Notes under the pieces: generated by a model | What the model was told of the DNA's origin: nothing | The model's input: the letters and a program-made list of their open reading frames with translations, nothing else | Databases searched by the model: none | Program-made: the position numbers and the translations under genes | Shown here: positions 2,609-52,181 of the stretch, in pieces | Layout of the letters: every line of letters begins with the position of its first letter | How positions within the stretch are numbered: position 1 is the first letter of the stretch | Origin: an uncultured Synechococcus sp. | GTDB taxonomy: Bacteria > Cyanobacteriota > Cyanobacteriia > PCC-6307 > Cyanobiaceae | DNA: 64,000 nucleotides | Assembly: GCA_913057985.1 (NCBI GenBank) | Contig: CAJXPL010000002.1 | Span: forward strand, 62,001-126,000 | Direction: 5' to 3'

Positions 2609-2629
2609 TCAACGGATCAGACCATCCAT

Positions 2630-2658
2630 AAAAAAGGGGGCCTGCGGGCCCCTTTTTT
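2630..2658 (+). terminator. Rho-independent terminator after the devBCA/small-protein genes
   Basis: An A6G4 arm pairs with a C4T6 arm; the inner part adds two C-G pairs past a single G/G mismatch, with a 3-base TGC loop. The T-run ends the structure on the plus strand. Because the A-run mirrors the T-run it could also stop minus-strand transcription, but no minus-strand gene reads into it. Confidence 0.8.
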
Positions 2659-2699
2659 GTTGTTCGTAGGGTGGGTGGCCATTTGCATCGGCCGTCGCG

Positions 2700-3632
2700 A
2701 TGTTCGTCAGCGTCGTTATTCCGACCTACAACCGACGCCCGATCCTCGAGAAATGCCTCTCGGCACTGGAAGACCAGCAGCTTGCTGGAGCTCTTCAGGA
2801 CTACGAGGTTGTTGTGGTTGACGACGGTTCCACTGATGGAACGCCGTCATGGCTGATCGAGCAGTCTCAGCGTTTTCCCCATGTGCGCCTGATCGAGCAG
2901 GAGCACGGTGGTCCTGCCGAGGGCCGGAACCGCGGTGTGGATCACGCCCGTGGCGATGTGATCGTCTTCATCGACAGCGATCTGGTGGTCACAGAAACCT
3001 TTCTGGCCACCCATGCACGGGCGTTGCAGCAGTGCTGGCAACGGCGCGGTGATCGGCTCTGCTTCACCTACGGCGCTGTCATTAACACCGCCAACTTCGA
3101 AGCACCCTGCTCGGAGCGCCACAAATTACGAGACTTGTCCTGGGCTTATTTCGCCACTGGAAATGTGGCCATCGATCGGGAGGTGCTGGAGCGCTCAGGC
3201 CTGTTTGACACCGGTTTCCGCCTCTACGGCTGGGAGGACCTGGAACTGGGTGAGCGTCTGCGGCGGATGGGGGTTGAGTTGGTGAAGTGCCCGGACGCTG
3301 TCGGTTATCACTGGCACCCCGCCCTGAGTCTCGACCAGATTCCCCGACTTGTGGAAGTGGAGGGTGAACGGGCCCGTATGGGGCTTGTTTTTTACCGCAA
3401 ACATCCCACCAGGCGGGTGCGCTTGATCATCCAGTTCACCTGGTTCCATCGCATCCTTTGGGAAGTGCTCACCCTCGGCGGGCTGATCAATCCCTCCAGC
3501 CTTCGCCCGCTGCTCCGTTGGCTGATCCGGCATGGCTATCCCGGAACGGCGATGGAGTTGCTTCGTTTGCCCCTCAATCGCATCGGTGTGCGTGCCCTGT
3601 TCCGTGAAGCCAGAGCGGCAGGGCTTCGCTGA
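2700..3632 (+). CDS. Family 2 glycosyltransferase
   Basis: Transfers a sugar from a nucleotide-sugar donor, 310 residues, GT-A fold. The N-terminus has the typical SVVIPTYNRR strand-turn, then DDGSTDGTP (about residues 41-49), the metal-binding-type FIDSDL (about 81-86) and an acceptor-side WEDLELGERL (about 180). No clear transmembrane helix is seen, though the C-terminal region is partly hydrophobic. The acceptor is unknown. It stands alone between a terminator and the rpsB leader. Confidence 0.82.
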   Translation: MFVSVVIPTYNRRPILEKCLSALEDQQLAGALQDYEVVVVDDGSTDGTPSWLIEQSQRFPHVRLIEQEHGGPAEGRNRGVDHARGDVIVFIDSDLVVTETFLATHARALQQCWQRRGDRLCFTYGAVINTANFEAPCSERHKLRDLSWAYFATGNVAIDREVLERSGLFDTGFRLYGWEDLELGERLRRMGVELVKCPDAVGYHWHPALSLDQIPRLVEVEGERARMGLVFYRKHPTRRVRLIIQFTWFHRILWEVLTLGGLINPSSLRPLLRWLIRHGYPGTAMELLRLPLNRIGVRALFREARAAGLR

Positions 3633-3761
3633 TCAACGTTTTGATACCTTCTATAGGTCCTTTCATTCCGCACACCTGCCCGTTTCGGGTGCACGTGAGA
3701 CCAGCTCCTGCTGGTTGTTCAGGTCCCTGGCAGGTGGAGGCGAACCCGAAACCCTCAAACC
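3633..3761. promoter_or_regulatory. rpsB leader region with candidate hairpins
   Basis: A 129-base gap separates the glycosyltransferase stop from rpsB. It contains a 6-bp stem with a 4-base loop at 3700-3715 and a Pro-codon-like CCCG/CGGG inverted repeat near 3680-3690. Ribosomal protein S2 operons are often autoregulated through their leaders in other bacteria, so a structured leader is plausible. No promoter boxes can be assigned with confidence. Confidence 0.3.
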
Positions 3762-4478
3762 ATGGCTGTCGTCACCCTCGCCGAGATGATGGAGGCTGGT
3801 GCCCACTTTGGGCACCAGACCCGTCGTTGGAACCCCAAGATGTCGCGCTACATCTATTGCGCGCGCAACGGCGTTCACATCATCGACCTCGTGCAGACCG
3901 CCGTCTGCATGAACAACGCCTACAAGTGGACCCGTTCTGCGGCACGCAGCGGCAAGCGTTTCCTTTTCGTTGGCACCAAGAAGCAAGCCTCTGAAGTTGT
4001 GGCGCTGGAAGCCGCCCGCTGCGGAGCCTCCTACGTGAACCAGCGCTGGTTGGGCGGCATGCTCACCAACTGGACCACCATGAAGGCGCGGATCGACCGT
4101 CTCAAGGATCTTGAGCGGATGGAGTCCAGCGGCGCCATTGCCATGCGCCCCAAGAAAGAAGGTGCGGTGCTGCGTCGTGAACTCGAGCGTCTCCAGAAGT
4201 ACCTGGGTGGCCTCAAGAACATGCGTCGCCTTCCCGATGTTGTGGTCCTGGTGGACCAGCGTCGTGAGTCGAATGCGGTGCTCGAAGCCCGCAAGCTCGA
4301 CATCCCCCTGGTATCCATGCTGGACACCAACTGTGATCCGGACCTCTGTGAGGTGCCGATTCCCTGCAACGACGACGCCGTTCGTTCTGTGCAACTGATC
4401 CTCGGCCGTCTGGCCGATGCGATCAATGAGGGCCGCCACGGTTCCAACGATCAGCGTGGTGGCGACAGCGAAGGCTGA
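3762..4478 (+). CDS. rpsB: 30S ribosomal protein S2
   Basis: Component of the small ribosomal subunit, 238 residues, normal length for bacterial S2. The N-terminal [20 protein letters not shown] and the motif [11 protein letters not shown] near residue 89 are diagnostic, as is the C-terminal DTNCDP segment. It is followed by tsf, the usual bacterial order rpsB-tsf, with an 84-base gap containing a strong hairpin. Confidence 0.98.
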
Positions 4479-8838: not shown

Positions 8839-8858
8839 TCCCATCTGTTGCCGCCTCG

Positions 8859-9560
8859 ATGCGTCCCTGGAGCCCGATTCCCATCGAAGATTGCGGCGAG
8901 CCGATGCAAGAGCTGCCTCCAGCTTTGTTGCGGATGGAGCCTCATCCGTACATGGCGCTTGGGGCGCCCTATGGGGCATCGGGGACTCCCTTCAAACTGC
9001 GCCTGGGGGTGGTTCAGCGCCTGCTTGACGCCCAGCAGCAGCTGGTTGAGCACGATCCCAGTCTGCGCCTGAGCATTTTTGATGCCTGGCGGCCCATCGC
9101 CGTGCAGGCCTTCATGGTGAAGCACAGCATCTCGGAGCTTTGCCGCGAGCGCGGCGTGGAAGCGCGCTCGGGGGACGCCTTCGATCGGGTGGTGGCCGAT
9201 GTGGGGCGCTTCTGGGCCGACCCCAGTCGCGATCCCGCGACGCCGCCCCCCCACAGCACCGGTGCGGCGGTCGACCTCACCCTCAGCAGCTGTGATGGAA
9301 CGCCGCTGGCCATGGGTGGAGAGATTGATGCCATTGGTGCGGTGTCTGAACCGCAGCACTACGCCGCTCGGGAGGATTTCGAGGCTCGCTGTTGGCATCA
9401 ACGCCGGCAGTTGCTGGCTGATGTGATGGAAGCGGCCGGCTTCGCCCAGCATCCCAACGAGTGGTGGCACTACTCGTTCGGTGATCAGCTCTGGGCCTGG
9501 CGAAGGGGTGAAGTGGTGGCGCTCTATGCCGAGGCCGTCAGCAGCGCGCTCACTTCCTGA
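8859..9560 (+). CDS. D-alanyl-D-alanine dipeptidase (VanX/DdpX family, M15D)
   Basis: Zinc dipeptidase likely to cleave D-Ala-D-Ala, 233 residues. The catalytic pattern is intact: Arg in DAWRP (about residue 76), the zinc ligands in PHSTGAAVDL (about 131-140), and the Glu base and third ligand in NEWWHYSF (about 193-200). No signal peptide is evident, so it would act in the cytoplasm. In non-pathogens VanX homologues are thought to recycle or scavenge D-Ala-D-Ala. No vanHA-like ligase genes are nearby. Its 3' end overlaps the opposing sulfite reductase gene by 37 bases. Confidence 0.88.
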   Translation: MRPWSPIPIEDCGEPMQELPPALLRMEPHPYMALGAPYGASGTPFKLRLGVVQRLLDAQQQLVEHDPSLRLSIFDAWRPIAVQAFMVKHSISELCRERGVEARSGDAFDRVVADVGRFWADPSRDPATPPPHSTGAAVDLTLSSCDGTPLAMGGEIDAIGAVSEPQHYAAREDFEARCWHQRRQLLADVMEAAGFAQHPNEWWHYSFGDQLWAWRRGEVVALYAEAVSSALTS

Positions 9561-11260
9561 TCCCCCAGCTTCTCGATGTGGTCCCCGAAGCTGCATCGGC
9601 CGCCGGCGGCTTTCCAGCTCAGGAGGAGCGGCTCAAGGGTTGTCTCCAGATCATCCAAGGGCAGCTTCTCCATGTAGGGGCGCGCCAGACGCTGGAGGTT
9701 GGGGGTGCCGCCGAGCCAGAGCTGGTATTGGTTAACCCCATTGCCCACCAAGCCCAGCTCGGCCATGTAGGGGCGGGCGCAGCCGTTGGGACAGCCGGTC
9801 ATCCTCACCAGCAGGGACTTCTCAATCTCAAGCCGCCGCAGCTGGGCATCGAGGCGGTTCAGAACATCCGGGAGGATGCGCTCCGATTCAGTGATCGCCA
9901 GCCCGCAGGTGGGCAGAGCCGGGCAGGCAATGGCATGCCTGGCCAGGGGGGCTGGGGCTTCAGGCACCTCAAAACCGAGAGCTTCCAGCTGGGTTCGAAT
10001 GCTGGCCCGCTGGGAGGTGCCGATGTTGCAGAGCAGCAGGTCCTGGTTGGCGGTGAGACGGATCTCCAGCTGATACGTCTCCACGAGCTGCCTGAGGCCG
10101 GCCTTGAGATCTCCATTCAGGCGACCGCAGAGCAGGGGCAGCCCCACGAACCACATCCCTGCCTTCTGGCGATGCCAGCCGAGGTAGTCCAAAAGTTTGG
10201 CCTTGGGCTCATTGCGCAGCCCCTTGAGGTTTCCTTTGAAGTAGGTCGCGCACAGGGTGTCGCGGAACCATTGGATTCCCTTGTCGTGCAGCAGGTACTT
10301 CATGCGGGCGTGCTTGCGCACCTCCCGATCACCGTGGTCCCGTTGCAGCGCCAGGATCGCCTGAACCACATCCAGAACGTCGGCGGCATCGACGTAACCC
10401 AATGGATCCGCCGTGCGGGCGAAGGTCTCCTCCTTGTTGTGGGTGCGGCCCATGCCACCGCCCACGTAAACGTTGCAGCCCCGCAGACCGCCGGAGGGGT
10501 CGGTGAAGGCCACCAGGCCGATGTCTTGGGTAAGCAGGTCAACAGAGTTGTCCCCGGGCACGGTGACGGCCACCTTGAATTTCCGGGGCAGGTAGGTGTC
10601 TCCGTAGAGAGGCTCCTCAGTGCTTCCGGAAAACACGCCGTCTTCGCTCTGCCGCTTCCTGGCCTTCTGCACAGCGCGACTGGGCTTGAAGCGATAACTC
10701 AGGTCACCATCCACCCAGAGGTCGAGATAGGCCCCTTCGGCCGCCTCGGGGCTGAGCAGATCGGCAATTTCATCGGCCAGACGCCGTGCCACGGGATAGC
10801 CGCCTTTCTCAAAGGGAGCTGGTGGTGCCATCACATTGCGGTTGATGTCCCCGCAGGCCGCCAGGGTCGAGCCCATGTTGCGAACGATGGTGCCAATCAC
10901 CTCTTTCAAGTCGGCCTTGGCGATGCCGTGCATCTGGAAGGCCTGACGGGTGGTAGCCCGCAGGGTTCCGTCCCCAAGGCGGTTGGAGAGGTCATCGAGG
11001 GCGAGGAACAGCCGGGCAGGGATGCGTCCGCCCGGACTGCGCAGCCGCAGCATCATTTGCCAGCTGCGGACCTTGTCTGTCTTGCGCAGTTCGCGGTGGT
11101 GCTGTTGGTAGCTGCCGTGAAACTTCAGCAGTTGAACGGCATCTTCCGTGAAGCGCACATCGTCGTTGCTGAGCTCGCTCAACAACGGGTCGCGCAGATG
11201 GTCGCTGTCCAGCTTGCGCTGCTCCGCCTTGGACAGCGATTGAGTTCCTGTTTCCGCCAC
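9524..11260 (-). CDS. sir: Ferredoxin-dependent sulfite reductase
   Basis: Reduces sulfite to sulfide with electrons from ferredoxin, using siroheme and a 4Fe-4S cluster, for assimilatory sulfur metabolism. About 578 residues. The cluster/siroheme Cys ligands are seen as ACPALPTCGL (C-x5-C) and the signature TGCPNGCARPYMAELG (C-x3-C). The open frame continues upstream past glyS, so the start must be chosen: GTG at 11260 has GGGGAAGG about 10 bases upstream; TTG at 11266 and GTG at 11281 are alternatives. Divergent from glyS with a ~95-base shared region. Confidence 0.93.
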   Translation of the reverse strand: MAETGTQSLSKAEQRKLDSDHLRDPLLSELSNDDVRFTEDAVQLLKFHGSYQQHHRELRKTDKVRSWQMMLRLRSPGGRIPARLFLALDDLSNRLGDGTLRATTRQAFQMHGIAKADLKEVIGTIVRNMGSTLAACGDINRNVMAPPAPFEKGGYPVARRLADEIADLLSPEAAEGAYLDLWVDGDLSYRFKPSRAVQKARKRQSEDGVFSGSTEEPLYGDTYLPRKFKVAVTVPGDNSVDLLTQDIGLVAFTDPSGGLRGCNVYVGGGMGRTHNKEETFARTADPLGYVDAADVLDVVQAILALQRDHGDREVRKHARMKYLLHDKGIQWFRDTLCATYFKGNLKGLRNEPKAKLLDYLGWHRQKAGMWFVGLPLLCGRLNGDLKAGLRQLVETYQLEIRLTANQDLLLCNIGTSQRASIRTQLEALGFEVPEAPAPLARHAIACPALPTCGLAITESERILPDVLNRLDAQLRRLEIEKSLLVRMTGCPNGCARPYMAELGLVGNGVNQYQLWLGGTPNLQRLARPYMEKLPLDDLETTLEPLLLSWKAAGGRCSFGDHIEKLGDQEVSALLTASA

Positions 11261-11354
11261 TGCCAAGGAGCCTTCCCCCACCCCGAAAAGGATTTCTTGA
11301 TTTGAACGTAGCGAAACGGCTTCCAATACAGTCGCTTCCGGCTTTGACCTTGGC

Positions 11355-13520
11355 GTGACGGCAACCTTTCTTCTGGAAATCGGCACCGAGGAGCTTCCTG
11401 CTGATTTCGTCCGGCAAGCGCTTGACCAGCTGCAGCAACGGGTGAGCCGTGACCTGCGTGAGGCAAGGCTGGGCCATGGAGCGGTGTCGGTGTTCGGCAC
11501 CCCCCGGCGATTGGTGGTCTCCGTCGCTGAGCTGGAAGACCGCCAACCCGATCTTGAGGAAGACCGCAAGGGCCCTCCCGTGGCTCAGGCTTTCAAGGAC
11601 GGCGTCCCAGGGCCAGCGGCGATCGGTTTCGCCAAGCGCTGCGGTGTTGACCCCTCAGATCTTGAGCAGCGTGACACTCCCAAGGGGCCTTGCGTCTTCG
11701 CCACCGTTCTCACTCCGGGGCAAGCCAGTGTTGAACTGCTCCAAGGGCTGATTCCTCAATGGATTGATGCTCTTCAGGGTCGGCGGTTCATGCGCTGGGG
11801 CACTGGAGCCCAGCGCTTCAGCCGCCCCATCCGCTGGCTGCTGGCGCTGAAGGGTTCAGAGGTGATCCCGGTGGTGCTGGGCGGCGCTGACCCTGAGGTC
11901 CGCAGCGACCGTTTCAGCCGTGCCCACCGTCTCCATGGTGACGAGCCCCTCTCCATCGCATCAGCGGAGCAGTTTGGAGAGACCCTTGCCGCCGCCGGTG
12001 TTGTTGTTGATCGTGCGGATCGGGCCAAACGAATTCGCACCAGCCTGGACCAGTCGGCACAGGCCGCCAACGGAACTCCCGACTGTCCGGAGCAGCTGTT
12101 TGAGGAACTGGTGGACCTGGTTGAAGACCCCAGGATTCTCGAGGGAACCATTGCTGAGCGGTTCCTCCAGCTTCCTCCGGAGGTGATCAGCACGGTGATG
12201 CAGGCCCACCAGCGTTATGTGCCGTTGCAGGTGCCTGGTCTGGAGGCTGATCCGCTCCGACTCACCGCTGATGCTGTGCTTCGGCCCCAGTTCCTTTTGG
12301 TGGGTAATGGCCTGGCCCCGGCGTCGTCCTTGATTGTTCGCGGCAATGAACGCGTGCTTGGAGCTCGCCTGGCGGATGCCGAATTTTTCCTCGATGTTGA
12401 CCGGCGTCAGTCCAGCGAATCCCGGCGTGAAGCCCTCGACCGTGTCACCTTCGCCGAAGGCCTGGGAAGTCTTCTGGACCGCTCCGAGCGAATCGAGCGG
12501 CTCACGGGCCTGCTGTTGAAGCAACTCGGTCTGGATCAGAGCGTGGTGGATGCGGCCCAGCGTGCCGCTCATTTCTGCAAGAACGATCTGGTCAGCCAGA
12601 TGGTGGGTGAGTTCCCTGAACTTCAGGGCCTGATGGGGGGCAAATACCTCCTGGAGGAGGGAGAACCCCGCGATGTTGCTCTTGCTGTGGTGGAGCACTA
12701 TCTGCCCCGAGGAGCCGGTGATGCTCTGCCCGCAACCCCCGCGGGAGCCGTTGTGGCCTTGGCGGAACGGCTCGAGCTGCTGCTCAGCATCTTTGCCAAG
12801 GGAGAGCGACCAACCGGATCCTCCGACCCCTATGCCCTGCGGCGGGCCGGCAATGGTGTTGTGCAGATTCTCTGGGGCATGGCCTGGCGCCTAGACTTCA
12901 TGGCCTTCCTCAGCAACGCCGTGGAGGAGTGGGCTGCTCTGTTCCCGGCCTTTGCGGTGGATGCCAGCCAACTGCACAACGACCTCTGTCAGCTGATGCG
13001 GCAGCGGATCGTGTCTCAACTGGAAGACGACGGCTTTGCGCCTGATCTGGTGCAGGCTGTGGCTGGCGATGCCGTCTCCAGTCAGCGTCTGCTCAGTGAT
13101 CCCCTGGATGCGAAACAGCGGATTCAACTGTTGCGTGACCTTCGGGACAGCGGTCAGCTGGATGCCGTCCAGGCGGTGGTCCAGCGGGCAGCGAAGCTTG
13201 CCGAAAAAGGTGATCTGGCACGCGATCAGCTTGTGGTCGGCGAAGTGGTTGAGCCCGAACGGTTCGAGTCCGCCAGTGAGAAGGATCTGTTCGCAGCTCT
13301 GGAGCAGCTGCAGCCATTGGCTCAGCAGCGGTCGTATCAAGCCCTTGCCGATGCCCTCGTCGCGGCAACCCCGGCGCTCCAGGCCTTCTTTGATGGTGAC
13401 ACCAGCGTGATGGTGATGGTCGACGATGCCGCGCTGAGGCTCAATCGCCTCAACCTGTTGGCGGTCCTGCGCAATCAGGCTTCGGTCTTGGCCGAATTTG
13501 AATCGATTCAATCCAAATGA
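11355..13520 (+). CDS. glyS: Glycyl-tRNA synthetase beta subunit
   Basis: Beta subunit of the tetrameric glycyl-tRNA synthetase, 721 residues, normal length. GTG start; the N-terminus ATFLLEIGTEELPADFV is the family hallmark and the C-terminal region resembles the anticodon-binding/DALR part (FFDGDTSVMVMVDD). The alpha subunit (glyQ) is not in this window. Its TGA overlaps a possible ATG of the next small gene. Divergent from sir. Confidence 0.96.
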   Translation: MTATFLLEIGTEELPADFVRQALDQLQQRVSRDLREARLGHGAVSVFGTPRRLVVSVAELEDRQPDLEEDRKGPPVAQAFKDGVPGPAAIGFAKRCGVDPSDLEQRDTPKGPCVFATVLTPGQASVELLQGLIPQWIDALQGRRFMRWGTGAQRFSRPIRWLLALKGSEVIPVVLGGADPEVRSDRFSRAHRLHGDEPLSIASAEQFGETLAAAGVVVDRADRAKRIRTSLDQSAQAANGTPDCPEQLFEELVDLVEDPRILEGTIAERFLQLPPEVISTVMQAHQRYVPLQVPGLEADPLRLTADAVLRPQFLLVGNGLAPASSLIVRGNERVLGARLADAEFFLDVDRRQSSESRREALDRVTFAEGLGSLLDRSERIERLTGLLLKQLGLDQSVVDAAQRAAHFCKNDLVSQMVGEFPELQGLMGGKYLLEEGEPRDVALAVVEHYLPRGAGDALPATPAGAVVALAERLELLLSIFAKGERPTGSSDPYALRRAGNGVVQILWGMAWRLDFMAFLSNAVEEWAALFPAFAVDASQLHNDLCQLMRQRIVSQLEDDGFAPDLVQAVAGDAVSSQRLLSDPLDAKQRIQLLRDLRDSGQLDAVQAVVQRAAKLAEKGDLARDQLVVGEVVEPERFESASEKDLFAALEQLQPLAQQRSYQALADALVAATPALQAFFDGDTSVMVMVDDAALRLNRLNLLAVLRNQASVLAEFESIQSK

Positions 13521-13570
13521 AGGCAGCCCTGGCCTCTGCGGCTAAGCAGGGGCCAGTCCAAGCAGCCTCA

Positions 13571-13795
13571 ATGTCTGATCAACAGACGAACACCACCCAG
13601 CAGCCTGTGGTGATCCGCCAGGGAGGAAATGGTCTGGGCAGCGTGATTGCGGCGCTGATCTTGGCTGCTGCCGCCGTTTACGCCGTCAACGTCTGGTCGA
13701 CGATCAAGAAAGAAACATCCCCCGCCAAGAACATTGAGCAAGGGATTGAGCGGATCAAGGATGCCGCTGGCAAGGCGATCGAGTCGCGCAACTGA
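13571..13795 (+). CDS. Small single-pass membrane protein, 74 aa
   Basis: Unrecognised. A Gln/Thr-rich N-terminal tail (residues 1-25), one hydrophobic helix (SVIAALILAAAAVYAVNVW, about residues 24-44) and an amphipathic, charged C-terminus. An in-frame ATG at 13517, overlapping the glyS stop, would add 18 residues; the ATG at 13571 begins the more natural MSDQQTNTTQQ tail, and neither has a strong ribosome site. A terminator follows. Probably co-transcribed with glyS. Confidence 0.65.
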   Translation: MSDQQTNTTQQPVVIRQGGNGLGSVIAALILAAAAVYAVNVWSTIKKETSPAKNIEQGIERIKDAAGKAIESRN

Positions 13796-13836
13796 CCAGC
13801 AGCATTGTTGATGGTGTTGGAGTGATGTTGAGGGCC

Positions 13837-13864
13837 GGCCTCCGTCAGGAGACGGCGGCCTTTT
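13837..13864 (+). terminator. Terminator for the glyS/small-protein transcript, overlapping the chlP 3' end
   Basis: Ten-bp stem with one mismatch (13837-13846 with 13851-13860), loop AGGA, then TTTT on the plus strand. Its right half lies inside the last codons of the minus-strand chlP gene, so the two convergent genes share this DNA. Confidence 0.65.
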
Positions 13865-15227
13865 CCTTCGACTCGGAACCTTTGGAGTTCCCCTCCTTGG
13901 ATTCGCCAGCCTGTGCCTTGATCTGCTGGGCCGCTTCCTCCGCCAGGAAATCGCCGTCGGAACGGCCAACGGCCGAAGGAACAGGGTTGTAATCGGACGG
14001 AGCTAGGGCCTCGCCTCGAATCAGGCTGCCCAGGGTGCGGAGGGTGAGCTTGATCTGCTGCCAGGGGTTCATCATCACCACCCGCTTGTACAGATAGCTG
14101 TCGAAGGTCAGCTTCTGCACGTCCTTGTCGTCGCACATTTCGACGAAGGCTTCCCGGGCAGCGTCGTTGCGGTAGAAGATTCGCTGCAGGATGTCGAGCA
14201 CCGCATAAGTGGCGCCGTATTTGCGGTCCCAGCGTTTGAGATAGGTCGACTTGATCTGCTTCTCAGTGGGGATGGAAGCACCGTTGTTGGAGATTTCCAC
14301 AATCGCTTCGGCACACATCCGGCCGCTCTTGGCTGCGAAGTAGATGCCTTCACCGGAGCTCTTGGTGACGTAGCCGGCGGCATCGCCCACCAGCGCCATG
14401 CGGCCCACAACGCGTCGGGGACGGGGGTGCTCAGGAATCGGGTGGGCTTCCACCTTGATCACTTCACCCTGGAACAGACGCTTGTTGGCCCGCTCCCGGA
14501 TGCCCCTTTGCAGACCCTTGATCAGGCTCTGGTTTTGCTGCATGGTTCCCGTTCCAACGGCCACGTGGTCGTATTTGGGGAACACCCAGGCGTAGAAGTC
14601 AGGTGAGACGTCAGTTCCGACGTACATCTCAGCCAGATCTTCGTAGTAAGTCATCTCCTCAGCAGGAAGCTTGATCCGCTCCTGGAAGGCGATGGCCACG
14701 TTGTAATCCCCGGCGTCCATGGCTTTCGCCACCCGGGAGTTGGCGCCATCGGCACCAATGATCAGATCCACAGCCAGGGTCTTCTGCTCACCGGTTGGGC
14801 CACCGCCGCTGTAGTCGGCGTAATGGATGGTGTATGGGCCCTGACGGTCTGCGCCGGTGTCGATCTTTTGCACCAGGCCATTGATCAGGGTTGTGCCCAG
14901 ATCGGCAGCCCGGTTGCGCAGGAAGGCATCGAACACCTCACGACGGCACATGCCGATGTAGGCGTTTTCGTCGTAGCCGAGGGGATCGAGCTTGATGTCC
15001 ACCTCCCTGTTGGAAGGGGAAATCATCTTCATGTTGCGGACCTTGCGGTCGATGATTTCGTCGGGCAGGTCGAACTCCTCGACCATGCAGAGCGGAATGG
15101 CCCCACCACAGGGTTTGGCGTTGTCGAGTTTGCGCTCGAACAGCCAAGTCTCAATTCCCGCCTTGGCCAAAATTTCGGCAGCGCAGGAGCCACTGGGGCC
15201 ACCACCGATCACCGCAACTCGCAACAT
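13845..15227 (-). CDS. chlP: Geranylgeranyl diphosphate/chlorophyllide reductase ChlP
   Basis: Reduces the geranylgeranyl side chain to phytyl for chlorophyll a and tocopherol, using NADPH, at the thylakoid membrane. 460 residues with an N-terminal FAD-binding Rossmann motif VAVIGGGPSGSCAAEILAKAG, the substrate-side KPCGGAIPLCMVEEF, and the second FAD motif GRMALVGDAAGYVTKSSGEG near residue 275. The C-terminal ~45 residues are Lys/Glu/Ser-rich. It is transcribed alone on the minus strand. A phototroph marker. Confidence 0.97.
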   Translation of the reverse strand: MLRVAVIGGGPSGSCAAEILAKAGIETWLFERKLDNAKPCGGAIPLCMVEEFDLPDEIIDRKVRNMKMISPSNREVDIKLDPLGYDENAYIGMCRREVFDAFLRNRAADLGTTLINGLVQKIDTGADRQGPYTIHYADYSGGGPTGEQKTLAVDLIIGADGANSRVAKAMDAGDYNVAIAFQERIKLPAEEMTYYEDLAEMYVGTDVSPDFYAWVFPKYDHVAVGTGTMQQNQSLIKGLQRGIRERANKRLFQGEVIKVEAHPIPEHPRPRRVVGRMALVGDAAGYVTKSSGEGIYFAAKSGRMCAEAIVEISNNGASIPTEKQIKSTYLKRWDRKYGATYAVLDILQRIFYRNDAAREAFVEMCDDKDVQKLTFDSYLYKRVVMMNPWQQIKLTLRTLGSLIRGEALAPSDYNPVPSAVGRSDGDFLAEEAAQQIKAQAGESKEGNSKGSESKEKAAVS

Positions 15228-38160: not shown

Positions 38161-38963
38161 ATCGGGTCTCCTTCTATTCGGCTCACAAAAAGAGCCATCA
38201 CTGGTGCCGTAGCCATCAGGGTCACCCCTTCTCCAACGGGCATCGTTTGCAGCACCACCTGTTGCAACAGGATTCCCCCGTTGGTCCCGACCACGGTGGC
38301 GATCACAAGCTTCCATTGCTCCCGTTGCTTCAGCTTGGTCTGTCTCCAGATCCCTTTGAGGAAGGGAAGAAGACCAAGCCATCCGCCCAGCAGCCGGATC
38401 GATGCCGTCTGCAATGGGGTGAGGTCGCTGCTGATCAGCACGTGACGGGCCAGAAAGGCTCCGCTCAGGCCACAAACCACGGCGGTGAGTGCCAACAGCA
38501 GCCCGATGCCGAAGTCAGCAGCGCTGCCCCCCCGCTCCCCTTGGCTCGTCTCTTTCGCCTGCATGGCAATGAGAACCACTGCGCTTGAAACCAAAAGCGC
38601 GCCGAGACCGTTCTTCACGGCCAGGCTGTCCCCCATCACCAGAACCCCAGCGATGCTGGCCAGCACCGGACCGCTGGCTTCCACGGTGAGGGTTCGTCGG
38701 GTGCCAAGTCGCCGCAACGCCCCGAGATAGAAGCTGTCGCCGGCCGCAATGCCGATCAAGCCGCTGATCAACAGCAGCAGAACAGCATGCACTTCGGTGT
38801 TGTGCGTAAGTGTGAGCAGAACCGGCAGAAACAGCAGGCTGGCCAAGCCGTTCTTCATGGCGTTGAGCCGGATCGCCGTGACTCGCCCTGATAGCGATCG
38901 CCAGAGTGCACTGGCTCCCGTCCAGGCCATGGCTGCTCCAAGGGCCGCCAATACACCCGTCAT
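38097..38963 (-). CDS. EamA/DMT-family membrane transporter
   Basis: Drug/metabolite-transporter superfamily permease, 288 residues with about ten hydrophobic helices in two EamA halves (GVLAALGAAMAWTGASALW at the start; ADFGIGLLLALTAVVCGLSG starting the second half). Substrate unknown. Its 3' end overlaps the CobW gene by 64 bases in the convergent direction. The recombinase remnant begins directly beyond its start. Confidence 0.85.
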   Translation of the reverse strand: MTGVLAALGAAMAWTGASALWRSLSGRVTAIRLNAMKNGLASLLFLPVLLTLTHNTEVHAVLLLLISGLIGIAAGDSFYLGALRRLGTRRTLTVEASGPVLASIAGVLVMGDSLAVKNGLGALLVSSAVVLIAMQAKETSQGERGGSAADFGIGLLLALTAVVCGLSGAFLARHVLISSDLTPLQTASIRLLGGWLGLLPFLKGIWRQTKLKQREQWKLVIATVVGTNGGILLQQVVLQTMPVGEGVTLMATAPVMALFVSRIEGDPIQLSGVAAAGLALAGVACTSL

Positions 38964-38969
38964 GGTCTG

Positions 38970-40120
38970 GTGTTGATCGTTGTGCAGTCTGCTGCGCAGA
39001 CCTCGTTGAATCAGCGCAGCCAGTCTCTGCCGAGCAATAACAGTCCTTCCCTGGCAAACCTTTTTGCAGGGTCAATCTTTTGCCGCCATTGCGGGTCACC
39101 AATGATCCTCAGGCCAGTGGTGGAGTCCCGCACAAATATCTTCGTTGCCGGAACGACTACAGCGTCTGCACCCACCGCGGTCATCAGTACCGAGAGGATT
39201 TCCTCCTTGGACATCTGGCCCAGTACCGGTGGGAAGCATTTTTCAATGCTGGTGTTCAGGAAGCAGCGTTGACGTCAGCAAGGTCATCGCTCATCGAAGC
39301 GGAGAAAGCTTTGAGGTCGGTCGATGAGGCCATTGGCAGAGTCAGCGCCAACATGAGCGAATTCATCACCAGTGACGACCCATCAGCCAAAACAGTGCTG
39401 TTGAAGGCTGCTCAAAAGATGGAAGATCTGATGGCAGACCGCAACCTGGCTCAGCTTGAAGTCGATAACTGGAAGGCTGAGGTCAGCAAGTTGACGCACC
39501 AGCAAACCGGACGTGAGGCAGAACGTGCATTGAAGCGTCAGATCGATGGCTTCCTCAGCGGTCAGGACAACAGCCTTGAGCAGCGTGTGACTTTCAATAA
39601 TTGGCTGAGGGACCAAGACCTTGTGCTCTGCATTGAGGATGCACATGATCTTGTTGCTGCCAGTGGCGAGCCATATCCATCTAATGAGATGCAAGCCCTG
39701 ATCCACATGGGACAGCCAGTCTTCGAACAGGGCAGGTTGGTGATGGTTAATTGTTTGCTGGAGACGATGAAGTCCGAGCCAGACTTCGAAGGCATGTCAA
39801 ACGGCTTTATGCAGGAGGTGCATGACCGTTATCAATTTGAATCCAATCGGTCAGACCCAGCAGAATTCGACAAGTTCTGGGAACAGACCGTAGATAGAGG
39901 CTGGCCAGCGGTTGATCTGATTGGCGTCAGAACGTATGAGGAGCACCGCTTCTGGAAGGACTTTGTCGATGCTGGCGGTGATGACCCATCAGCCACCTTT
40001 GATGGCGGTATTGGCCTCATCCACCATCCGTTGACATACGACACTGAGATTGTTGGGAAATGGACGTCGCGTGAAAAGCGCAAACGTGGCCGACCGGCCA
40101 AACGCAAGAGGTCGAGCTGA
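38970..40120 (+). pseudogene. Large serine recombinase, C-terminal fragment, frameshifted
   Basis: Remnant of a large serine integrase/recombinase. The recombinase zinc beta-ribbon is split between two frames: frame 3 carries LANLFAGSIFCRHCGSPM (first Cys pair), and frame 2, from about 39095-39130 onward, carries PHKYLRCRNDYSVCTHRGHQ (second pair), then a helical region to the TGA at 40118-40120 ending in a basic tail (KRKRGRPAKRKRSS). The catalytic serine domain is absent, and upstream DNA belongs to the EamA gene. The stop overlaps the ATG of the HNH-like gene. Confidence 0.75.
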
Positions 40121-41055
40121 TGGCAAGGTCAACAGGGAAATCCGAAAAACCAGAACGAGCAGACGAAGAATTTTTTGATCTATCAAAAACCCCCGAAAGC
40201 TGGGCACAACTACCGAAAACTCGAGCAGAAGCAAAGAGCCAAGACAAAAAGTATTACTTCACTCAAAAACCATGCACAAAAGGCCATTACAGCCCAAAGC
40301 TAACTTCAAGCTACGGATGCTGCGCATGCAACTATATCAAGGCAAATTCACCTGAATACAAGAAAAAACAAAGTGAATATGTAAGAGCAAATAGAGAGAA
40401 AATAAATGCACGGGCTCGAGAGCGAAGAGCTGACCCAAATGATTCGTTTTCCCAAGAAGAAGCTGCTAGATCAAAGAGGAGTAGAAACAAAGATATTGAA
40501 TTTACTCGAGCAAGAGCCAGGGCTTACCAGCGAAGGTACAACGCAGAAGACCCAGAAGCAGCACGGGCTTACGCAAGGCGCCAAGCTCAGAAGGCAGAGG
40601 CCAAGGCTCAGCGGAATAAACGACTCGGTGAAAGAAGGAAAGAGGACCCAGCATTCCTTGTTGAACAAAGATGCCGGTCACGAATTGGTGGCGTCTTCAG
40701 AAGGGCGTCAATCCCCAAACAAGGCGAAACAAAAGAGCTAATTGGCACCGACGACTGGAGCCATGTAGAAGCACATATAGCCTCAATGTTTGAAGATTCA
40801 ATGACCTGGGAGAACAGAGATCAATGGCATGTCGACCATGTACGGCCTTGCGAATCTTTCAATCTGTTAATAAAATAGCAGTGCTTAGTAGCTTTTAATT
40901 GGAGAAATTTAAGACCAATGTGGGGACCAGAGAATGTATATAAGAACGATGAATACGAACCTCATCATGAGGTCGAATGGGCACGACGAATGAGAGAGCA
41001 GGGATACGACGGCGAATTGTTCATTCTGTTTGAGGAAGGACTCGGAGGGTTATAG
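40120..41055 (+). pseudogene. HNH endonuclease-like gene interrupted by an in-frame TAG
   Basis: Reading from ATG 40120 gives 252 residues to TAG at 40876-40878. The same frame then continues cleanly to TAG at 41053-41055. The join has the order of an HNH nuclease C-terminus: WHVDHVRPCESFNLL, stop, then VAFNWRNLRPMWGPENVYKN. The N-terminal part has Cys pairs (KPCTKGHYSPK; YGCCACNYIK) and a long Lys/Arg/Ala-rich helix. Base composition is clearly more A-rich than its neighbours, consistent with transfer. Coupled to the recombinase remnant by TGATG. Confidence 0.7.
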
Positions 41056-41165
41056 GGACAGGAGGCGGCTAGCGATGTCCCAGAGTACGTTTATTAACTT
41101 CTCAGCTTCTGCTAAGCCACACCCTTCAATCCAGGAAGTAGAATCAAAGAAGTTGAGTTATAAAA

Positions 41166-41558
41166 TTGAAAAACTTTATAGCAATGGGGCTCATCTTTTT
41201 TTCGTCATCATTGGCTTCAACTGCTGTTAATGCAGGGCCTCAGTGGGCATACAACATGGCTTCATACGAATGCAAGTTGTACCGTCAGGGTATGTCTACC
41301 GCAGAAGTTACCAGGAAATCAGGCGAGAGATTTCCTGAATACAAACAATATGTTGACGAGTATGGGCTGGGTCCGATGGTGACAGAGTTATTTAATCAAT
41401 GCCCTGAGTCTTTGCCAGAAAGTAGTTCATTGCCTAGTGGCAGTGGTGGTTCAGGTGGATGCACACCCAGTCATCAACAGATCTACAACCTGGCAAACAG
41501 AGGCGGAAGTATCAGTCTTCAAGGAGAGAACTGCTACTTCTATCTCTCAGTCAACTGA
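41166..41558 (+). CDS. Small secreted Cys-containing protein, 130 aa
   Basis: Unrecognised. TTG start at 41166 gives a proper signal peptide (KNFIAMGLIFFSSSLASTA, cleavage after VNA near residue 23); the ATG at 41184 would lack the positive charge. The mature part has four Cys (YECKLY; NQCPES; GGCTPS; GENCYFYL), a Ser/Gly-rich linker (SLPSGSGGSGG) and ends in ENCYFYLSVN. Possibly disulfide-bonded. It belongs to the AT-richer segment that also holds the recombinase and HNH remnants. Confidence 0.55.
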   Translation: MKNFIAMGLIFFSSSLASTAVNAGPQWAYNMASYECKLYRQGMSTAEVTRKSGERFPEYKQYVDEYGLGPMVTELFNQCPESLPESSSLPSGSGGSGGCTPSHQQIYNLANRGGSISLQGENCYFYLSVN

Positions 41559-41645
41559 CGATAAGAAGAAACTTCAGATGGTTTATACGTCGATCACGTT
41601 GGGCGTTCCACTGCAATGGACGCTGGTTGGTGAACGGTTTGGCGA

Positions 41646-42599
41646 TCAGCGGGATGGCGTCAAAAAAGAGTTGATCAGCTTGTTCGACAACATCCAGAGC
41701 ATCGTCGCTGTGTCGCTGTTCTTCGCTTCCTCGGAGGGTTCCGTTGGTTTGAATTGATGCCGGCCAGGGCCCAACAGGGCATTGCTCCAGTACCTGAATC
41801 CCGGTTGATCAAGTTGTTCATCGATGAGCTGCACCAGCAGTGCCCCTGCCCGCTCAACGCTTTCCGTCAATCGCAAGAGATCCCGAGCGACCAACCCAAA
41901 CAAGGCCTGCCCAAGTGGATTGGCTTGGCGACTGTTTCTGAAAAACCCTTCTGACGTGCGGGGAATCACCAGTCCCGGACTCCAGGCCACGACAGGCAAA
42001 TCCTGACGCTGCTGGTGGATCTGCAGGGCCATCAGCAGATTGCACAGCTTGCTGTCTTTGTAGGCCTTGTCTGCATTGAACGGACTGTCTCCATCCACCA
42101 TCGGCGCCCCGGGGCCCTGGCGCAGTCCCTGTAGCGAGCCCAGCCCTGCAGGCTGGCCAACCCGTCCTCCGCCGGTGGCTGGATTGTGCACCTCAGAGGC
42201 GGTGATCACGATGGCTTGGGTTTGCTCCTTCAATCCTTCAGCCAGAAGTTGATGGGCCAGGTGGTTCACCGCAAAGGTGAGTTCAATGCCCTGTGCACTC
42301 CAGCGGGGGGAATCATGGCCGGCGTATTGCAACCCTGCATTCAGCACCAGTGCATCGAATGGCGTCCCGTCACGGCGAAGTTCTTCGATCGCCTTGGCCA
42401 CAGACGCAAGGTCCGCCAGATCGGCGATACACGTTTCCACGGAATCCGACAGAGCCGTGCGGGTTCGTTCGGCCCGTTCTGCATTGCGGCAAACAACGGT
42501 GAGTGCATCACCACGGGCCAGCAGGATTTTTGCCGCTTCAAGGCCAATGCCGCTGCTCGCACCGGTGATCAGAACGCGGCGCTGTTCAGCAGTCGTCAT
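41646..42599 (-). CDS. Short-chain dehydrogenase similar to light-dependent protochlorophyllide reductase
   Basis: SDR oxidoreductase, 317 residues. NADP motif TGASSGIGLEAAKIL, the NAG-type VLNAGLQY, and the active site NADKAYKDSKLCNLL, which is the POR-type YKDSK. The overall length and the C-terminal WMLSNKL also follow POR, but the POR N-terminal substrate region differs, so it is a POR-like paralogue rather than Por itself. It is downstream of, and overlaps by 14 bases, a beta-propeller-like gene on the same strand. Confidence 0.8.
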   Translation of the reverse strand: MTTAEQRRVLITGASSGIGLEAAKILLARGDALTVVCRNAERAERTRTALSDSVETCIADLADLASVAKAIEELRRDGTPFDALVLNAGLQYAGHDSPRWSAQGIELTFAVNHLAHQLLAEGLKEQTQAIVITASEVHNPATGGGRVGQPAGLGSLQGLRQGPGAPMVDGDSPFNADKAYKDSKLCNLLMALQIHQQRQDLPVVAWSPGLVIPRTSEGFFRNSRQANPLGQALFGLVARDLLRLTESVERAGALLVQLIDEQLDQPGFRYWSNALLGPGRHQFKPTEPSEEAKNSDTATMLWMLSNKLINSFLTPSR

Positions 42600-47253: not shown

Positions 47254-47340
47254 CGGAGAGGGTGGGATTCGAACCCACGGTGCCCGTGAAGACACGCTGG
47301 TTTTCAAGACCAGAGCCATAAACCACTCGACCACCTCTCC
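47254..47340 (-). tRNA. trnS-UGA: tRNA-Ser (anticodon UGA)
   Basis: 87-base class II tRNA. On the minus strand the acceptor stem is GGAGAGG pairing with CCTCTCC plus discriminator G; the anticodon arm CTGGT-CTTGAAA-ACCAG gives TGA; a long variable arm follows (GTGTC-TTCACGGGCAC region), then GGTTCGAATCCC. CCA is not encoded. The 5' end lies 6 bases from a 28-bp palindrome. Confidence 0.95.
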
Positions 47341-47398: not shown

Positions 47399-49729
47399 TC
47401 AGTTTTCGGGCTTGGCCAGTGGCAGCAGGCACTTGTCGGAATCACAACCAGCGGGGCCGGCTTCCGTCAGCTCACCCTGGTCGTAACGCTGCAGTGCTTC
47501 GAAGAAATCACTGCTGACGCGACGCTTCACCACAGCCGATTGCAGCTCCTCGTAGGTGGCTGCATCGATCGGCTCAAAGGGCAGGCGGGGGAAGGTGGCA
47601 TTGGCATCGAAGCGGGCCAGAAGTGCTGCTGAGATGTAGCCCTCGCCCTTCTCCATGGCTTGATGCAGAGCATCAGCCAAGGGTTCGATTTCGTGCTCGC
47701 GGAATTCGATGGTGGCGGAGGTGTTGTGGGCGGTGTAATGCCGCTGCACTTGCATGTAGAAATCGAATTGCGCCATGGCACTGAAGCCGTTGATGTCAAC
47801 AGCATCAGCACCGGGCAGGTTGGCCCAGCTCACCTCGGTGGGAATCTCCACCAGCCATTCGGTGCAGCGGGGATCGAAGGGGTCATTCAGCAGACGGCCT
47901 TCCTCATCCTTGTCGGACTGGGAGGGAACGATGGTGTAGCCGTAGTCCATGCAGGCCATGGCCACGGGGTCGTTCTTGCGGAAGGTGATCCGGCGGATGA
48001 AGCGCTGGGCTTTGGGGGGATGCCAGCCGGGGGCGGCACCGGTGAGCAGGCTCTTGGTGCCTGCAGGCTGAACGGTGGTGCAGCGGTTGGGGCGACGCAA
48101 ACCATGGCGGTCGCAGTAGTCCCAGACCGTTTGATTGACGATCTCTTTCCAGCGGCTCAGGTAAGCGGCTTCCTGCTCCTTGAAGCGCAGACCCTCCTTG
48201 GTATCAGGCCGGCCAGCCTCCCACCAGCGCAGCCATTCCGTGCCGAAGGCATGGACGAAGAAGTCGAACAGGCCGGTGAAGCTGACGCCCACGATCGGAT
48301 CCCACTCACGGCTCTGGCGGTAGCGCTCCACTTCAAAACGATGGTTGAGCAGACAAGCAACCGACAGGGCACCCGCACGGAAGGCATCGGCCTGGCCTTC
48401 CTCGTCGCTGGGGTCGATCTGGTTGAGGTGCACCTCGGCCAGATTGCAGTGGAAGTCGGCACCCAGGATCTCGCCGCAGGGATTCAAGCCGTAACGACTG
48501 AGGCGGTGCTCCAGCTCGTCAGCTCCGATAGGGCCATGGTTGTCGGACAGCCAACGTCCCGCTTCCTCACGCCCCTGATCACAGTAGATCTCAATGAACT
48601 CGCTGCGCAGTTCAGGGGTTGTGAGCAGATCAGCATTGGAGCGAGCGATCGCCTCGGGTGCGAACTGGATGGCACCTTCACCGGAGTGGAACTGCTTGGT
48701 CACCGCTGCGTGCACAACGTCCTTGCTGGGACGGGTGTGATAAACGCGGGTGTGGTTGGCCATCCGCAGCGCATCACGCTCGGGATCGATCCTCCAGTTG
48801 CCCTCCTCGTCCTGCTGCCAGAGGTTGTCCTTGGAGGACGCAGCAGCCTGGTCGTCGGAGGCGAACTGGCGCATGCCGGCGCTGCGACGGATGTTTCCGG
48901 CCACGATCGTGACGGCGGCTTCGTCGATCAGCAGGCAGCACTCCACGGAGGTGAGCCGACGGCCCTGGGCCTTGTTGAGCAGACGAGCAACGCGCCCGTA
49001 AAGATCCTTCAGTTTGACGGGGTTGGCCATGCCACCGAACCCCTTCAGCGTTTCCCCAACAGGGCGCACATCGCTGAGGTCCACTTCGATCTGAATGGGA
49101 CCGCCGTTGAACCGCTCATCGCTGCTGAGCTCGAGCATCAGCTGATAGCTGTCCACCCAGCCACGGCGGGTGTCGCCCACCTTGATGGTCACCTTGTTGC
49201 CATCAATGCTGTGGGTGCAGTCGTCCTGGCGCTCAGCCGCAGGAGTGATGCCGATTTCGCTGACGCTGGGGACTTCAAAGCTGTTGCGCACCACCGGAAG
49301 CCGGTCGATCAGGTGCGGCTCGATGATGGCGCCGGTGCCGCAGCCCATCATCGCCAGGTCCATCATCAGACCGAAGGCCTGCCAATCCACCAGATTGGTG
49401 GAGGTGCAGTTGTAGGAGCCCGAGAAGTTTTCGGGCTGTTCGATCCAGCGGGTGCCACCGATCCAGAGCCAGCGGCCTGAGGGAAGAGCTTTTTTCTCGG
49501 CCTGCATGCGAGCCAGCAGGGCCACTTCCGCATCGCTCAGGTTGCCCAGCTGACGAAGGCCTTCCAGGTTTCGCGCGCCCACCTGACTCCAGCTCTCACG
49601 GCCGCTGGGGGTTTTGCGGCTGTAGGTGCGATAGAAGACCGGGTTGGCAGCAGGAGCGGTTGCAGGGAAGTCGCCGAACCCGGCGATAGCTCCCGCAGAG
49701 GTCTCCACACGATTTGGAGTGAGGGTCAC
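47399..49729 (-). CDS. nrdJ: Adenosylcobalamin-dependent ribonucleoside-triphosphate reductase (class II)
   Basis: Makes deoxyribonucleotides with a B12 radical, oxygen-independent, 776 residues. Features: NCTSTNLVDWQAF with the first active Cys, FGGMANP, the finger-loop region NPCGEILGADFHCNLAEVHL, and C-terminal TVQPAGTKSLLTG and the redox Cys pair GCDSDKC. The frame is open up to 49888, but GTG at 49729 gives the family N-terminus. Its presence makes DNA synthesis depend on cobalamin. Divergent from a methyltransferase gene. Confidence 0.94.
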   Translation of the reverse strand: MTLTPNRVETSAGAIAGFGDFPATAPAANPVFYRTYSRKTPSGRESWSQVGARNLEGLRQLGNLSDAEVALLARMQAEKKALPSGRWLWIGGTRWIEQPENFSGSYNCTSTNLVDWQAFGLMMDLAMMGCGTGAIIEPHLIDRLPVVRNSFEVPSVSEIGITPAAERQDDCTHSIDGNKVTIKVGDTRRGWVDSYQLMLELSSDERFNGGPIQIEVDLSDVRPVGETLKGFGGMANPVKLKDLYGRVARLLNKAQGRRLTSVECCLLIDEAAVTIVAGNIRRSAGMRQFASDDQAAASSKDNLWQQDEEGNWRIDPERDALRMANHTRVYHTRPSKDVVHAAVTKQFHSGEGAIQFAPEAIARSNADLLTTPELRSEFIEIYCDQGREEAGRWLSDNHGPIGADELEHRLSRYGLNPCGEILGADFHCNLAEVHLNQIDPSDEEGQADAFRAGALSVACLLNHRFEVERYRQSREWDPIVGVSFTGLFDFFVHAFGTEWLRWWEAGRPDTKEGLRFKEQEAAYLSRWKEIVNQTVWDYCDRHGLRRPNRCTTVQPAGTKSLLTGAAPGWHPPKAQRFIRRITFRKNDPVAMACMDYGYTIVPSQSDKDEEGRLLNDPFDPRCTEWLVEIPTEVSWANLPGADAVDINGFSAMAQFDFYMQVQRHYTAHNTSATIEFREHEIEPLADALHQAMEKGEGYISAALLARFDANATFPRLPFEPIDAATYEELQSAVVKRRVSSDFFEALQRYDQGELTEAGPAGCDSDKCLLPLAKPEN

Positions 49730-49850
49730 GTGCGGTGCTGGGGCGAAGGACAAGTATCGAAACCCTAACGCCACAGATGGGGGTAGCAAGGTCTCCTTAC
49801 CACCATCAACAGTGTCCTGTTCAAACTGAGCGCTAAATCGACAGCAAATC

Positions 49851-50528
49851 ATGCAGCGGCGGCTCGAGCCTGAGTTGATGAACGGCATTGCACAGGTGCA
49901 GGCCTATGCCGCTGCCGACTTCAGTTCCGGCGATCAAGCCACCATCGAAGCGATTCAGCGTCTCCTCTCACGCACATCGCCTTTGCCGCCAGATCCACTG
50001 GTGGTGGATCTGGGTTGTGGGCCGGGAAACATCACGCTTCGCTTGGCTGGCCTCTTCCCCAAGGCTCGAATCATCGGCATCGACGGTGCCGAATCGATGC
50101 TGGCTCTGGCCCGGGAGCGGGCGCAGCATCAGCAACTGGAGATCTCATTCCTCTGTCAGACCCTTCAGGAGGTTCTTGAAGGTCCTCTGCTTGGGCAGGC
50201 TGATCTGATCGTCAGCAACAGCCTTTTGCATCACCTGCATCAACCCGATCTGCTCTGGACGGTCAGTCGAGCCCTGGCAGCACCTGGGTGTCGTGCCTTG
50301 CATCGGGATCTGCGGCGTCCGGCCTCCGACGCTGAGATTCAACAGCTGCTGCTGAAACACCTGCCATCGGCGCCAGAGGTGTTGCAGCACGATTTCGCTG
50401 CCTCGCTGGCGGCGGCCTTTGAGCCTGATGAGGTGATTGCCGAGCTCCACCGGCTGGGACTCAACCAGTTGACGGTGTCGGCAGAGGACGACCGTTATCT
50501 GGTGGTGTCAGGCTTGGTGAAGTCCTGA
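49851..50528 (+). CDS. SAM-dependent methyltransferase
   Basis: Class I methyltransferase, 225 residues. Motif I VVDLGCGPGNITLRLAGLFP, the acidic loop GIDGAESMLALARER and post-motif NSLLHHLHQPDLLW are clear. Substrate unknown. ATG 49851 (alternative ATG 49878). prfC follows after 6 bases, so they are probably co-transcribed. Confidence 0.88.
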   Translation: MQRRLEPELMNGIAQVQAYAAADFSSGDQATIEAIQRLLSRTSPLPPDPLVVDLGCGPGNITLRLAGLFPKARIIGIDGAESMLALARERAQHQQLEISFLCQTLQEVLEGPLLGQADLIVSNSLLHHLHQPDLLWTVSRALAAPGCRALHRDLRRPASDAEIQQLLLKHLPSAPEVLQHDFAASLAAAFEPDEVIAELHRLGLNQLTVSAEDDRYLVVSGLVKS

Positions 50529-50534
50529 AATCCG

Positions 50535-52181
50535 ATGAGCGGCAGTCAAGCGACCACTGATGGTGATCTGGCCCAGGTTCTGGCCTCGGCGGTGGATCGC
50601 CGTCGCAACTTTGCGATCATTTCCCACCCGGACGCGGGAAAAACAACTCTCACTGAGAAGTTGCTGCTCTACGGCGGTGCCATTCAGCAGGCCGGTGCGG
50701 TGAAAGCCCGGGGCGAGCAGCGCAAGGTGACCTCCGACTGGATGGAGCTTGAAAAGCAGCGGGGGATTTCGATCACCTCAACGGTGCTGCAGTTCGATTA
50801 CGACGCCACCACGATCAACCTCCTGGACACACCAGGTCACCAGGATTTTTCCGAAGACACCTATCGAACGCTGGCAGCGGCTGACAACGCCGTGATGCTG
50901 GAAGATGCCGCCAAGGGCCTGGAGCCTCAGACGCGGAAGCTGTTCGAGGTCTGCCGCATGAGGCAGATCCCGATCTTCACCTTCATCAACAAGATGGACC
51001 GCCCGGGGCGGGAACCGCTCACCCTGCTCGATGAAATCGAGTCGGAACTCGGCCTCACCCCCTGGGCAGTGAACTGGCCGATCGGCAGTGGCGAGCAATT
51101 CCGTGGTGTGATCGATCGCCGCAGCAAGGAGGTGGTTCTGTTCAGCCGTGCTGAACGCGGCAAGCAGGCCAGTGAGCAACGCCTCTCGCTGGACGACCCT
51201 GCCCTGCGCGAATTGGTGGAAGAGGACCTGCTGGATCTGGCCATTGAAGAAATGGAGTTCCTGGAGGCGGCTGGCGCCGAGCTGGACATTGAGATGGTCC
51301 ATGCCGGTGAGCTCACCCCGGTGTTCTTCGGCTCGGCCATGACCAACTTCGGGGTCCGTCCGTTCCTCGATGCCTTCCTTGAGATGGCACAACGGCCGAT
51401 CGCCCGATCCAGCAGCGAAGGTCTGGTGGACCCGTTGCGTGAAGGGTTCAGCGGCTTCGTGTTCAAGCTTCAGGCCAACATGGACCCCAGGCACCGCGAC
51501 CGGGTTGCCTTCGTCCGTGTCTGCAGCGGCCGCTTCGAAAAAGACATGACGGTGAAGCACGCCCGCACGGGCAAAGCGATCCGTCTCTCACGTCCTCAAA
51601 AGCTGTTCGGTCAGGACCGAGCCGTGGTGGAAGACGCCTATCCGGGTGATGTGATCGGTCTCAACAACCCCGGCATGTTTTCCATTGGCGACACCCTTTA
51701 TGTGGGTTCGAAAGTGGAATACGAAGGCATTCCCTGTTTCAGCCCGGAAATTTTCAGTTGGCTGCGCAACCCCAACCCTTCAGCCTTCAAGAACTTCCGC
51801 AAAGGGGTGAACGAGCTGCGGGAAGAGGGGGCTGTGCAGATCCTTTATGACACCGACGAGAGCAAGCGGGATCCAATTCTGGCGGCCGTTGGACAACTCC
51901 AGCTTGAGGTGGTGCAGCACCGCCTTGAAAACGAATATGGCGTGGAAACCCGCCTTGAGCCCATGGGTTTCCAGGTTGCCCGTTGGATCAACGGCGGTTG
52001 GGCTGAACTCGAAAAGGTGGGCCGGATTTTCAATTGCAAGACCGTGCGTGATACCTGGAATCGGCCTGTGCTGTTGTTCAAGAACGAGTGGAATCTCAAC
52101 CAGCTTCGGGAAGACCACCCCGACCTTGAACTCAGCAGTGTTGCCCCGGTGGTGAGTGGAGTGGAGCCGATCAGTCTCTGA
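50535..52181 (+). CDS. prfC: Peptide chain release factor 3
   Basis: GTPase that ejects RF1/RF2 after termination, 548 residues. G1 [20 protein letters not shown]2/G3 KQRGISIT and [14 protein letters not shown], and G4 [10 protein letters not shown] are intact, followed by RF3-type C-terminal domains. Ends with two further in-line small genes. Confidence 0.97.

Follow-up and report, generated by a model that had tools for sequence, protein, structure and literature searches.

Does an in-frame TAG in an HNH-like gene mark a recent inactivation, a wrong base in the assembled sequence, or a codon that is read through? The question is raised by one locus in a 64,000-nucleotide stretch of DNA from an uncultured Synechococcus sp. 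(the window, meaning here the whole stretch that was analysed), and its named relatives and genome context point to a marine picocyanobacterium as host. A sequence-only reading of the window had left the three options side by side. Comparison of the locus with related genes indicates that recent inactivation fits best, that a base error is a possible explanation and that read-through is unsupported. The gene is very probably an ordinary case, a phage-type HNH nuclease gene that became a pseudogene not long ago and lies in a decaying integrative element.

The interrupted frame and its protein family

The frame that opens with the ATG at 40120 runs for 252 codons to the TAG, stays open for 58 more and closes with a final TAG at 41053-41055, giving a joined frame of 311 residues that is otherwise free of further stops or frameshifts. 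Its features, all on the plus strand, are as follows.

40120..41055, plus strand: endonuclease VII-like HNH gene, probable pseudogene (from the frame, a PHROG profile, blastp with the tail and the stop survey)
40273..40329, plus strand: N-terminal Cys/His motif (CTKGH at 40273-40287, CCAC at 40318-40329)
40825..40842, plus strand: first half of the nuclease motif, WHVDHV, before the stop (from alignments)
40876-40878, plus strand: in-frame TAG (from the reading of the frame; no stop at the aligned codon in 136 loci)
40894..40935, plus strand: second half of the nuclease motif, FNWRN to PEN, after the stop (from alignments)

The TAG sits in a variable stretch that separates the two halves of the nuclease motif, and the second half is cut off. 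HxDH followed by N and N, which we take to be the residues defining the HNH motif, are all present in the joined frame, with the TAG dividing them. W236, H237, D239, H240, N263 and N272 were invariant in a four-sequence alignment; when 24 sequences were aligned, N263 and N272 were again invariant and each of the other four was conserved in at least 90%. A structure model of the joined protein, examined for a strand-strand-helix metal fold and serving as a guide only (mean pLDDT 78.2, pTM 0.35), places a strand (236-240) before the stop and a strand (264-268) and a helix (269-275) after it. A fold search of the PDB with this model returned 53 matches at E<=10, some weak ones being HNH or related nucleases and none reaching E<=0.001, and the best sequence match among solved structures had an E value of 0.072. 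Loss of the tail should leave the nuclease with an incomplete site; the N-terminal Cys/His motif and a predicted helical region are unbroken. A restart after the TAG was rejected as a candidate, the first in-frame start (ATG at 40918) yielding 45 residues that lack the first half of the motif.

The tail was compared with other proteins on its own. By blastp, the 58 residues matched the corresponding gene of a related genome, G007, at 65.5% identity over 58 aa (86.3 bits, 5e-27) and a second copy in the same genome at 67.2% over 58 aa (87.4 bits, 2e-26), with weaker matches to other relatives. The best of 500 shuffled tails scored 24.6 bits, and a chance open frame after the TAG is ruled out by scores so far above the shuffles. 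The 58 post-stop codons are, on these alignments, a real HNH C-terminus, as the sequence-only reading had proposed when it described the gene as broken by a single TAG with an intact downstream frame; a lack of similarity, which would have spoken against it, was not observed. Against the same proteins, the pre-stop part showed 25-39% identity over longer alignments and nothing significant with G085, a short remnant. The post-stop tail (40879-41052) is better conserved (65-67%) than the part before the stop. It includes an extension that is common to the cyanobacterial copies and absent from the phage proteins aligned, and small fragments of the tail recur in other genomes of the genus, G014 and G001.

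The family assignment differs from the one that had been suggested. The joined translation, for which HNH profiles such as PF01844 had been named, matched no Pfam family at E<=1 and no NCBIfam model at E<=0.01. Among the relatives, neither an uninterrupted copy in G068 nor the G007 copy, in its open C-terminal part, matched anything in Pfam at E<=0.01, and the second copy matched only families of helix-turn-helix type at that threshold. The scanned relatives likewise lack a Pfam HNH match, so the miss of the joined frame reflects the limits of the profiles rather than decay. PHROG 1035, annotated as 'endonuclease VII', was matched by the joined frame (E=4e-13) and by the pre-stop part (4.9e-10), and no PHROG profile was matched by the tail alone. 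The PHROG profile and the alignments thus identify an endonuclease VII-like family (PHROG 1035) rather than PF01844. Relatives were found in 108 of 50,697 phage records, all below 60% identity and 7 of the 108 covering at least 80% of the query; single-protein scans of the genome and viral collections returned no relatives.

The stop codon and the state of related copies

Whether relatives share the stop was surveyed by searching 137 loci with the window protein: 80 viral loci kept of 532 relatives, 43 genome loci and 14 others, some genes occurring twice (for example, that of G068 as L007 and L250). The TAG codon was aligned in 136 of the 137, with 135 sense residues of 14 kinds, one gap and no stop. 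When the G007 piece served as the query, all 137 loci spanned the codon, with 136 sense residues, one gap and again no stop. Comparison with homologues lacking the stop had been proposed, and it shows the disrupting lesion to be missing from relatives, a feature by which pseudogenes are recognised. A stop conserved as a regulatory feature was also considered and is ruled out by the same 136 loci. Stops away from the TAG codon were held by 9 of the 136 matches; in phages L127 and L129 they result from an alignment that overruns the annotated gene end, and two others, L034 (G007) and L126 (G017), are both broken genes.

The closest parallel is found in G007. Its pair resembles that of the window in gene order, in the recombinase C-terminus RGRPAKR, in a one-base overlap (TAATG) between recombinase stop and HNH start, and in HNH length (310 against 311 codons). 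The two differ in that the G007 serine recombinase (622 aa) is intact, and its HNH gene carries a TAG at codon 46 and a TAA at codon 58, with a sense codon at the position of the window TAG. In this region (L034, G007:C1:1408000-1427900, about 7678-14675), a capsid gene, a DUF3854/helicase gene, the broken HNH gene and the intact serine recombinase adjoin one another, a cluster that resembles a small phage-derived or satellite element.

The second copy in the same genome (G000:C3, about 48690-50690; L035 / L002) is uninterrupted, encodes 358 aa and shows 46% identity to the window protein over query residues 149-311. Unlike the window gene, it has a tyrosine recombinase as its partner (PHROG 1 integrase, E=3.1e-10) and an extra N-terminal helix-turn-helix region; its start overlaps the stop of that uninterrupted recombinase by one base.

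Among 148 genomes (its own included, and G017 counted once), the nuclease half was present at nine loci. Two are uninterrupted, namely the second copy and G068 (274 aa, also L250), where 242 bases separate the end of a tyrosine recombinase from the HNH gene that follows. Another six are broken or reduced to remnants (the window, G007, G057, G017, G014 and G085); in G057 the frame changes near the end and the N-terminal motif is unrecognisable. The ninth, in G077, is a fragment. At that locus (L123, G077:C1:735000-743000, 1583-4219), the N-terminal motif and the nuclease half are matched at points about 2.2 kb from each other, which may reflect an insertion or unrelated ORFs. A search of 201 family genomes with another query yielded two more pieces, a weak partial match in G253 and a scrap of 24 residues in G001.

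A recombinase remnant in a variable chromosomal site

The gene upstream and the surrounding island bear on how the HNH gene came to be stranded. The features concerned are listed below.

38998..41612, no strand assigned: island flanked by an EamA transporter gene and a short-chain dehydrogenase gene (approximate ends, the right one at 41613-41671 depending on the relative)
39057..39113, plus strand: first piece of the zinc ribbon of the recombinase, in a frame that differs from the rest (weak; Pfam Zn_ribbon_recom E=0.0032, under the cut-off)
39080..40120, plus strand: C-terminal part of a large serine recombinase, a remnant (blastp to the G014 and G007 recombinases; catalytic domain absent at the locus)
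40118..40122, plus strand: TGATG, recombinase stop and HNH start sharing one base
41166..41558, plus strand: small ORF of 130 aa in the same island, possibly secreted (judged by eye)

By blastp, 39080-40120 matched residues 345-619 of the G014 recombinase and residues 345-533 of that of G007 (E values of 2e-16 and 1e-15, respectively), and the zinc-ribbon piece matched the same two proteins at 0.046 and 0.081. Those proteins (650 aa in G014) have Resolvase, Recombinase and zinc-ribbon domains, the zinc ribbon of G014 being under the cut-off, and no Resolvase domain was detected by Pfam in either frame of the window locus at E<=1. From these comparisons, the upstream gene is judged to be a truncated, frameshifted remnant without the catalytic N-terminal half, a break that had not been noted in the sequence-only reading. 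The zinc-ribbon piece matches only weakly (E values from 0.003 to 0.08), which makes the frameshift less certain than the truncation. Lacking its catalytic half and being frameshifted, the recombinase should therefore not move this copy. The two genes had been assigned to one element because they overlap; the overlap of the TGA (40118-40120) with the ATG (40120-40122) by one base, at 40120, is confirmed, and G007, where gene order and one-base overlap recur, supports their membership of one element.

The island of about 2.6 kb is missing in all eight relatives compared. In each of them, alignment with the left flank (EamA side) stops at 38994-38999 and resumes in the right flank (dehydrogenase side) at 41613-41671, with no aligned sequence in the interval. 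Its GC content is 48.7%, against 60.3% for the window, and no flanking repeats marking its ends were found. In five of the eight, about 1.15-1.34 kb with a DUF389-type membrane gene is present at the site. This gene reads as a single frame in L078 and L079, is split between frames in L077, L080 and L083, is shortened in L076 and L082, and is gone in L081 (about 10 bases at the site) and the window; the L078 copy was identified by Pfam (DUF389, 6.5e-37) and the other copies by eye, from their translations. The site (window 38963-41646, L076-L083) appears as a spot of repeated gene loss. The 130-aa ORF in the same island has no PHROG or Pfam match, and its relatives occur in 2 of the 33 other genus genomes searched, in G029 as two pieces.

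The overlap of recombinase and HNH genes was also surveyed beyond these loci. One-base overlaps with the HNH start were seen for serine recombinases (the window and G007) and a tyrosine recombinase (the second copy), and in Prochlorococcus L252 the HNH start overlaps the stop of a tyrosine recombinase by 4 bases. Of 132 loci with an HNH frame, 69 have an ORF on the same strand that is 120 codons or longer and stops close to the HNH start. Two of these ORFs, those of the second copy and L252, resemble recombinase or capsid queries; G007 was missed in this survey because its own stops cut the frame walk, its pair having been seen separately. Ten of the 69 ORFs were scanned with Pfam, with one integrase match, in L252, below the cut-off (25.2 bits vs 27.1). 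Seven were unrelated (terminase twice, a chaperonin, a tRNA synthetase, a DNA polymerase, a PD-(D/E)XK nuclease and planctomycete domains), and two had no match, one of which is the tyrosine recombinase of the second copy, recognised by PHROG. The arrangement is not general. It is mildly notable that an HNH gene of one kind overlaps the stops of two unrelated recombinase types; no description of such an overlap in picocyanobacteria was found in the literature as judged by titles and the starts of abstracts, which does not prove its absence.

Homing-type nucleases degenerate once they are fixed. A tentative and rather doubtful reading of the overlaps is that, in picocyanobacterial elements, the HNH nuclease might be a swappable, translation-coupled partner of integrases that serves transfer or insertion, and that it might become a liability once the element has settled in the chromosome, to be knocked out by different stops in different copies.

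Explanations of the stop and known systems

In the favoured reading, the source would have been an integrative element in which the gene of a large serine recombinase preceded an endonuclease VII-like HNH gene, with overlapping stop and start. The element may have inserted, lost half of its recombinase and stayed, leaving a piece in a variable chromosomal spot. Selection on the nuclease would then have ended, and a recent nonsense mutation followed, probably after the stranding of the element; the stop is taken to be recent because the frame is otherwise free of stops and frameshifts. Ordinary translation would end after 252 residues, short of the second half of the metal-binding motif, and hence yield no nuclease. 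A pseudogene is strongly favoured by the homology of the tail, the absence of shared stops, the uninterrupted second copy, the broken recombinase, the absence of the island from relatives, the different stops of G007, the six broken or remnant loci among nine and the lack of a CTA anticodon among the 37 tRNA genes found. On the other side, the lesion is only one substitution, and the well-conserved nuclease residues and tail would also be expected of a functional gene that is read through.

A sequencing or assembly error at the TAG, with an HNH gene intact in the real genome and the recombinase still truncated, is unlikely. A single base difference would suffice for it, the assembly is a 61-contig draft, and the remaining frame looks sound. 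However, other copies of the family in related genomes are broken too, which makes a broken copy unsurprising, and an error would leave the recombinase without its catalytic half unexplained. The reported completeness of 99.58% and contamination of 0.06% also speak for the assembly, though they carry little information on single bases.

Read-through of the TAG to a full-length nuclease, either by a suppressor tRNA or as a programmed event, is very improbable. Conservation on both sides of the codon in an otherwise open frame would be in line with it. Suppression by a tRNA is rejected, none of the 37 tRNA genes found having a CTA anticodon, in a set that is incomplete (no tRNA-Ile). In addition, TAG terminates 6 of the 62 genes that were selected by composition from two stretches of this genome, and 2 of the 36 ORFs that reach 250 aa or more. 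The HNH gene itself ends in TAG at the point where G007 and the alignment end, and any suppression would therefore need to spare this final TAG while acting on the first. The codon aligned with the first TAG is a stop in none of the related loci, and G007 stops elsewhere. Retention of the 252-residue product for a new use, such as DNA binding by its N-terminal part, has equally little probability: the Cys/His motif and the helical region are intact and N-terminal-only ORFs are common in relatives (many matches lie within about residues 9-103), but the HNH start shares a base with the stop of a dead recombinase, no other locus stops at the TAG point, and the G007 stops fall in the N-terminal part.

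As a pseudogene, the window gene is of little weight, adding another decayed gene of a mobile element at a variable place in the chromosome. The window locus shows a pair that appears to be decaying piecemeal, and it points to a coupling of recombinase and HNH nuclease in picocyanobacterial elements that can be tested.

The island resembles tycheposons and the integrase element of PMC10187409 in that these are recombinase-bearing variable islands in marine picocyanobacteria. According to that source, the element has a tyrosine integrase beside tRNA-Phe or tRNA-Cys. A tyrosine integrase next to a tRNA was not found at the window locus, where the neighbour matches serine recombinases. Unlike that element, the island has a large serine recombinase remnant, and the nearest listed tRNA (G000:C2:109254-109340, window 47254-47340) is about 6 kb away.

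Among phage systems, the window protein is like those of PHROG 1035 in having an N-terminal Cys/His motif and a C-terminal HNH motif, and the gp48 region of Pseudomonas phage PS-1 matches it at 27.5% over 85% of the query (2e-19, tblastn). The HNH nuclease of HK97, as described in PMC10448857, is encoded upstream of terminase and works with it in cos cleavage in vitro. PS-1 gp48 precedes the terminase small subunit, whereas the window gene comes after a recombinase. Unlike the phage proteins, it is interrupted by a TAG and has the C-terminal extension of the cyanobacterial copies.
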